Source of the DNA: Nitrospirota bacterium
GTDB lineage: Bacteria; Nitrospirota; Thermodesulfovibrionia; SZUA-242
Direction: 5' to 3'
Assembly (NCBI GenBank): GCA_027021335.1
Contig: JALUUO010000005.1
Span: forward strand, 1 to 64,000
Length of the DNA: 64,000 bases
The position numbers were made by a program, and so were the translations under genes. Shown here one piece after another: positions 49,083-49,298 of the stretch; the stretch's first letter is position 1, and each line of letters opens with the position of its first letter. Under the pieces are notes generated by a model. The model was not told the origin of the DNA and made no database searches. It saw only the letters and a list, made by a program, of their open reading frames with translations.

Positions 49083-49298
49083 TCAAACACCTCAACTGCC
49101 TCCGTAACCGGTGGTCACTTTATCCCCCTCAACAATAACCGGGACCCGCCTGACACCACCTGAATATTTCAGCATTTCTTCTAGATTTGCGTCATCCTCT
49201 TTAACATTAATATACTTTGCATTGTCCCCATAGGCTGACCTAGCCCTTTCAGTATGAGGTCAACCGGGTTTACCGAAAATAATAACCTTTTCCGCCAT
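49083..49298 (-). CDS. Glutaredoxin-like Uxx-star-type selenoprotein with two in-frame UGA (Sec) codons
   Basis: MAEKVIIFGKPG[U]PHTERARSAYGDNAKYINVKEDDANLEEMLKYSGGVRRVPVIVEGDKVTTGYGGS[U]GV*; strong RBS aaggaggtg; UGAs at 49262-49260 and 49094-49092; final stop at 49085-49083; downstream hairpins. Confidence 0.85.
49226..49259 (-). promoter_or_regulatory. SECIS-like hairpin 1 (for internal UGA)
   Basis: CCTCATA/TATGGGG lower stem plus GGCT-AGGTC-AGCC apical stem-loop immediately after the UGA. Confidence 0.7.

Follow-up and report, generated by a model that had tools for sequence, protein, structure and literature searches.

A covarying hairpin as the very probable SECIS element of Sec-13, and a putative untranslated counterpart for Sec-69, in a UXX-star family 1 selenoprotein gene

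Does the in-frame UGA near the start of a short minus-strand gene in this stretch of DNA (hereafter the window, 64,000 nucleotides in all) encode selenocysteine (Sec) and, if so, what sets it apart from a stop codon? A sequence-only reading had proposed a SECIS-like element with an AGGUC apical loop, like that of Escherichia coli fdhF, directly after the UGA at 49262-49260. In support of this proposal, synonymous sites covary, relatives have UGA at the corresponding codon, pairing is broken or weakened in natural controls with Cys or UAA there, and the genome has Sec machinery. On these sequence comparisons, the hairpin at 49246-49232 is very probably the SECIS element that serves Sec-13 in a selenoprotein of UXX-star family 1. 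The gene provides a compact natural test of how SelB tells a Sec UGA from a stop UGA: within about 230 nt it brings together two Sec codons, two putative SECIS elements and a third, terminating UGA.

The gene occupies 49083-49298 on the minus strand and consists of 71 codons plus stop, from an ATG at 49298 to a stop codon at 49085-49083, with TGA translated as U. Its 71-residue product, MAEKVIIFGKPGUPHTERARSAYGDNAKYINVKEDDANLEEMLKYSGGVRRVPVIVEGDKVTTGYGGSUGV, carries Sec at positions 13 and 69. A probable Shine-Dalgarno region, GGAAGGAGGTG, recognised by eye, lies upstream of the ATG at 49302-49315 (limits approximate). The product scored 108.5 bits with the NCBIfam model of UXX-star selenoprotein family 1, NF041114 (cut-off 72; model positions 1-70 of 70 covered), and also matched Pfam Glutaredoxin above its cut-off. 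By sequence, the gene belongs to a published family of glutaredoxin-like proteins with two Sec residues (PMC13188914), also listed there as 'Distant Grx-like protein 1' and credited to a 2008 ocean-sampling selenoprotein survey. It is an ordinary member of that family: it shows the full-length match, U in a UxxT motif, a second U three codons before the end and two Sec residues in all, and we found no point of difference. The HUGP/GUXX-star fusion and UXX-star families 2 and 3 (NF045501, NF041211, NF047338) share a related glutaredoxin-like domain and scored 41-48 bits. They differ from the window gene in that these scores fall under their cut-offs and in that the fusion partner is absent or the subfamily is another one.

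In a structure model of the product built from 32 family members (mean pLDDT 87.4), the predicted fold agrees with solved glutaredoxins; the best match among solved structures was glutaredoxin 3ic4 (E 1.7e-4, TM 0.71 by query length). The Sec-13 codon (49260-49262, minus strand) is part of a UPHT motif, where it takes the place of the first Cys in the glutaredoxin CxxC/CxxS motif, and a Sec at the active-site position of this fold suggests redox chemistry. Metal binding is another role suggested for Sec in UXX-star proteins (PMC13188914), and the product probably acts in thiol/selenol redox or in metal/metalloid handling.

Within the same class, 64 of 234 genomes have the gene; among 399 genomes sampled across the phylum, 66 do. 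Nearly all copies have two TGAs. Among the 70 rows with an alignable site, codon 13 is UGA in 66, a Cys codon in three and UAA in one. Three loci hold apparently decaying copies: L036 combines UAA at Sec-13 with a changed loop, L077 has a disrupted C-terminal part, and L081 is a broken copy that shares its genome with an intact one. The genome under study encodes tRNA-Sec, SelA, SelB and SelD and so belongs among those that decode Sec.

After the UGA at 49262-49260 the minus strand reads CCTCATACTGAAAGGGCTAGGTCAGCCTATGGGG. Counting the first base after the UGA as +1, the apical stem of the hairpin that we call SECIS 1 pairs positions 14-18 with 24-28, and its loop takes up positions 19-23. The core (49232-49246) is a 5-bp stem, GGGCU/AGCCU, closing the pentaloop AGGUC (49241-49237). 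The sequence-only reading had the sequence, the coordinates and the spacing right, including an offset nearly the same as in fdhF: the GGU of the loop lies at +20 to +22 here and at +19 to +21 in E. coli fdhF (checked in E. coli genomes). Its full drawing (49226-49259), with a lower stem CCUCAU/AUGGGG and a 7-nt bulge, is recovered as the minimum-energy fold of +1 to +36 (-11.1 kcal/mol), except that G14-U28 replaces A7-U28 and gives the proposed GGCT-AGGTC-AGCC apical hairpin a fifth pair. The apical hairpin by itself folds at -6.0 kcal/mol.

SECIS 1 resembles the E. coli fdhF SECIS in the AGGUC of its apical loop, in the offset of GGU and in its short upper stem; it differs in having a 5-bp upper stem with a 5-nt loop and in lacking a conserved lower stem. 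The fdhF SECIS has a bulged U that is contacted by SelB, for which no counterpart is assigned in SECIS 1. The published bacterial SECIS model (PMC13188914 Fig. 2), the limits of which we applied by hand, specifies an apical loop of 3-9 nt, an upper stem of 4-16 bp, a G at one or both of the first two loop positions, 16-37 nt between the Sec UGA and the apical loop, and a minimum free energy of -7.5 kcal/mol or lower. SECIS 1 lies within all of these limits, with a 5-nt loop and 5-bp stem in the fold of +1 to +36, G at the second position of AGGUC, 18 nt from UGA to loop and the energy given above for +1 to +36. At gathering thresholds, Rfam returned two tRNAs from the window and no SECIS match.

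Folding of the single sequence was unremarkable. Shuffled versions of the 36-nt stretch folded at least as well in 24 of 200 cases, and z scores ranged from -1.2 to -2.0, the latter driven by an alternative helix considered below, so we rejected single-sequence fold statistics as proof of SECIS 1. A loose SECIS-like hairpin follows 55 of the 1,312 minus-strand TGAs in the window (about 4%), and the exact geometry together with a G[GU] loop follows three of them. Covariation among relatives gives the SECIS reading evidence that folding of one sequence cannot.

We compared 63 distinct Sec-13 sequences, drawn from the same class and from public contigs, in an alignment free of gaps over the SECIS 1 region. 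The loop-closing pair 18-24, between the third positions of an Ala codon and of the second codon after it, is C-G in 46 sequences, U-A in 13 and A-U in three, and is unpaired in one; pair 15-27 is G-C in 39, A-U in 11, G-U in five and U-A in one, and is unpaired in seven. When the 1,830 pairs of columns lying three or more apart in a block of 63 columns were ranked by corrected mutual information, 18-24 came first and 15-27 third. The second strongest pair, 19-22, lies inside the SECIS 1 loop, is A-U or C-G in 54 of the 63 sequences and resembles the N1/N2 pair of the published loop pattern.

To set these counts against the demands of the protein, synonymous codons were reassigned at family codon usage in 1,000 protein-preserving shuffles. 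Of the 315 cells of the 5-bp apical stem, 292 are paired, whereas the shuffles gave 223 ± 5 (maximum 240; z 13.4); the mean hairpin energy is -5.43 kcal/mol against -2.25 ± 0.24, a difference of some 13 standard deviations as well. Sequences added once the hypothesis had been framed, from the phylum's other classes, point the same way: 18-24 is paired in 20 of 20 Sec sequences (one of them a repeated locus), as C-G in 17 and U-A in three. On the protein tree we counted 12 changes at position 18, 13 at position 24 and 13 of the pair, so that nearly all changes at 18-24 are joint ones. This tree is short, with two independent comparisons only on well-supported branches, and tree-based sign tests were not significant, there being too few pairs on supported branches. 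On this evidence, the orthologues carry compensatory changes at both 18-24 and 15-27.

The SECIS reading thus stood up to comparison across orthologues, with the difference that what is conserved is a 15-nt apical hairpin at 49246-49232 and not the long lower stem. Pair 2-33 of that lower stem can form in 12 of the 63 sequences, pair 5-30 in 24 and pair 6-29 in 33, and we rejected CCTCATA/TATGGGG as a conserved element: although it forms in the minimum-energy fold of +1 to +36 (without A7-U28), it is specific to the window sequence. This lack of conservation agrees with recombinant E. coli constructs in which a 17-nt upper hairpin of fdhF, in an untranslated position, is given as the SECIS (PMC3834832). 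Even when folding starts from +1, the SECIS stem appears in the minimum-energy fold of just 39 of the 63 relatives.

Genes in which codon 13 is not UGA form a small set of natural controls, in which SECIS 1 is damaged or weakened. Three with Cys have lost the loop-closing pair, reading C.U (L018), G.G (L044) and A.G (L109) at 18-24. A further Cys gene, L060, keeps 18-24 and has G.A at 16-26; it is a weak control, because some Sec genes also have G.A there. The gene with UAA, L036, keeps 18-24 and has the loop AGAUC and A.C at 15-27. The C-terminal Sec is retained in L018, L060 and L109.

Might the UGA instead stem from a sequencing error, or be a stop, whether of a pseudogene or a genuine one, with the hairpin no more than a chance fold? 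The ordinary folding of SECIS 1 among its shuffles and the loose hairpins after about one in 25 minus-strand TGAs of the window would fit such an account, but dozens of genomes share UGA at this codon, with the protein conserved on both sides of it and a covarying hairpin after it, the family is a curated selenoprotein family, and the genome has Sec machinery. Conservation refutes this account in practice, and we give it next to no chance. Scarcely more credible is the idea that the paired letters reflect codon preference or a constraint on the protein (Ala-Arg-Ser-Ala) and not RNA structure. Such a constraint does account for part of the stem: pair 17-25 is invariant because, in nearly all members, Ala codons determine both of its bases, and the protein partly dictates 16-26. 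Pairs 18-24 and 15-27, however, are third codon positions that change together, shuffles that preserve the protein never exceed 240 paired cells where the family has 292, and pairing is lost or weakened in the Cys versions.

A different RNA structure competes for the same bases. The CTGA/TCAG alternative pairing pointed out in the sequence-only reading is contained in a longer helix, GGUUGACCU/AGGUCAGCC (49265-49233, minus strand), which covers both the UGA and the SelB loop and becomes the best fold, at -14.7 to -18.5 kcal/mol, once at least three bases upstream of the UGA are included; the SECIS fold therefore holds for +1 to +36, but over the wider region the minimum-energy fold is this helix. 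Were the helix a functional state of the RNA, it would hide the UGA and the SelB loop until the ribosome opened it, and so act as a switch on Sec insertion. We consider this improbable. Beyond the -18.5 kcal/mol reached with upstream bases, it draws on the 22 of 63 relatives that favour the UGA-hiding helix when 12 nt upstream are added, and on the Gly-12 codons just before the UGA, which have a pyrimidine in 49 of 59 cases against 226 of 347 for other Gly codons (Fisher p 0.006). Against it, the UGA, CC and GGUC that make up most of the helix are fixed by codons and by the SelB loop, so that it cannot covary; the third base of Pro-14 has no preference for pairing with position 19; the helix exceeds synonymous shuffles only marginally (z -1.9); and the helix must melt once the ribosome gets to the UGA. 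Given the count among relatives, that z score and the indifference of Pro-14, we set the helix aside as a conserved state.

We return to the apical hairpin as the SECIS of Sec-13. With the UGA at 49262-49260 in the A site, the bases immediately downstream would lie inside the ribosome, which occludes about 11 nt downstream (PMC4513850). Occlusion of that extent would melt both the alternative helix and whatever lower stem there is and leave the apical hairpin, so that the 15-nt GGGCU-AGGUC-AGCCU would remain folded outside. SelB, loaded with Sec-tRNA(Sec) and GTP, would bind the AGGUC loop as the ribosome approached, and Sec would be delivered at the UGA, at the right distance, instead of termination by RF2.

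The internal UGA of the sequence-only reading is one of two Sec codons; the other, which that reading did not mention, is the Sec-69 UGA at 49092-49094 (minus strand), third from the end, and it has a hairpin of its own past the stop. UGA in relatives and the family model identify it, and the four codons at 49094-49083, TGA GGT GTT TGA, spell out the C-terminal U-X-X-stop of the UXX-star motif (here U-G-V-stop). Comparison of relatives marks the codon at 49083-49085 as the true stop. It lies 9 nt after the Sec-69 UGA and is UGA in 29 of 69 rows, UAA in 25 and UAG in 15. The occurrence of UAA or UAG in 40 of these rows led us to reject the third UGA as a Sec codon. As the stop here is itself UGA, the window has two UGA codons, spaced 9 nt, in front of a single hairpin.

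That hairpin, SECIS 2, is CCGAU-AGUUU-AUCGG at 49065-49079 on the minus strand, in the 3' untranslated sequence, with its loop starting at +18 after the Sec-69 UGA. A qualifying hairpin lies past the stop in all 69 rows (one locus counted twice), mostly with G[G/U] in the loop and mostly with the loop starting at +17 to +24. These hairpins average -8.7 kcal/mol, as against -1.9 ± 0.26 with the post-stop sequence shuffled, and their innermost two pairs, as counted after the search for the best hairpin, form in all 69 rows, C-G exchanging with U-A and G-C with A-U. The window copy folds at -5.3 to -6.1 kcal/mol and thus fails the published limit of -7.5; despite this energy we call SECIS 2 SECIS-like in function, by comparison with its relatives, because its position, loop and conservation fit. 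A conserved LPIVYR reading after 49085-49083 was rejected as coding sequence, since it derives from the hairpin, which varies in length and frame between relatives.

SECIS 2 (49079-49065, untranslated) would serve Sec-69 in the way SECIS 1 would serve Sec-13. From the Sec-69 UGA to its loop is 17 nt, inside the published range of 16-37 nt, and from the stop UGA 8 nt, outside it; we infer that spacing explains the different reading of the two codons, the stop UGA terminating because the loop is by then just about 8 nt off and too near.

Both the family and the presence of two Sec residues in it have been published before (PMC13188914), and the mildly unusual part of this locus is the untranslated SECIS 2, with a terminating UGA between Sec codon and hairpin. 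Bacterial SECIS elements have been described as lying within coding regions (PMC13188914), whereas the second hairpin of UXX-star family 1 is conserved outside the coding region. The nearest parallel is the engineered C-terminal Sec of TrxR1 expressed in E. coli (PMC3834832), which likewise has a near-terminal Sec codon, a stop and then an untranslated hairpin; SECIS 2 differs in being natural and in that the intervening stop is UGA in 29 of 69 relatives. In the literature searched, to which the primary UXX-star papers did not belong, we found no description of a natural bacterial SECIS wholly past the stop, and we claim no priority. As a tentative and rather doubtful extension, UXX-star genes may use a natural bacterial SECIS lying wholly past the stop, many of them with a terminating UGA 9 nt after the Sec UGA and before the same hairpin, so that spacing alone would set the meaning of UGA, while SECIS 1 might also be gated by the helix that hides its UGA and loop.

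Around the gene, tilS (tRNA lysidine synthetase) lies directly downstream (47557-49002, minus strand), and the two ORFs upstream (49382-51486) had no NCBIfam match. The stop UGA of the upstream 537-codon ORF (49384-49382, minus strand) is also followed by a loose SECIS-like hairpin, probably by chance, given how many minus-strand TGAs in the window have one. Elsewhere in the same genome, SelD (L083, 1483-2526 of G000:C17) is itself a selenoprotein, with an in-frame UGA at codon 16 and a hairpin whose loop, GGACUU, starts at about +21.
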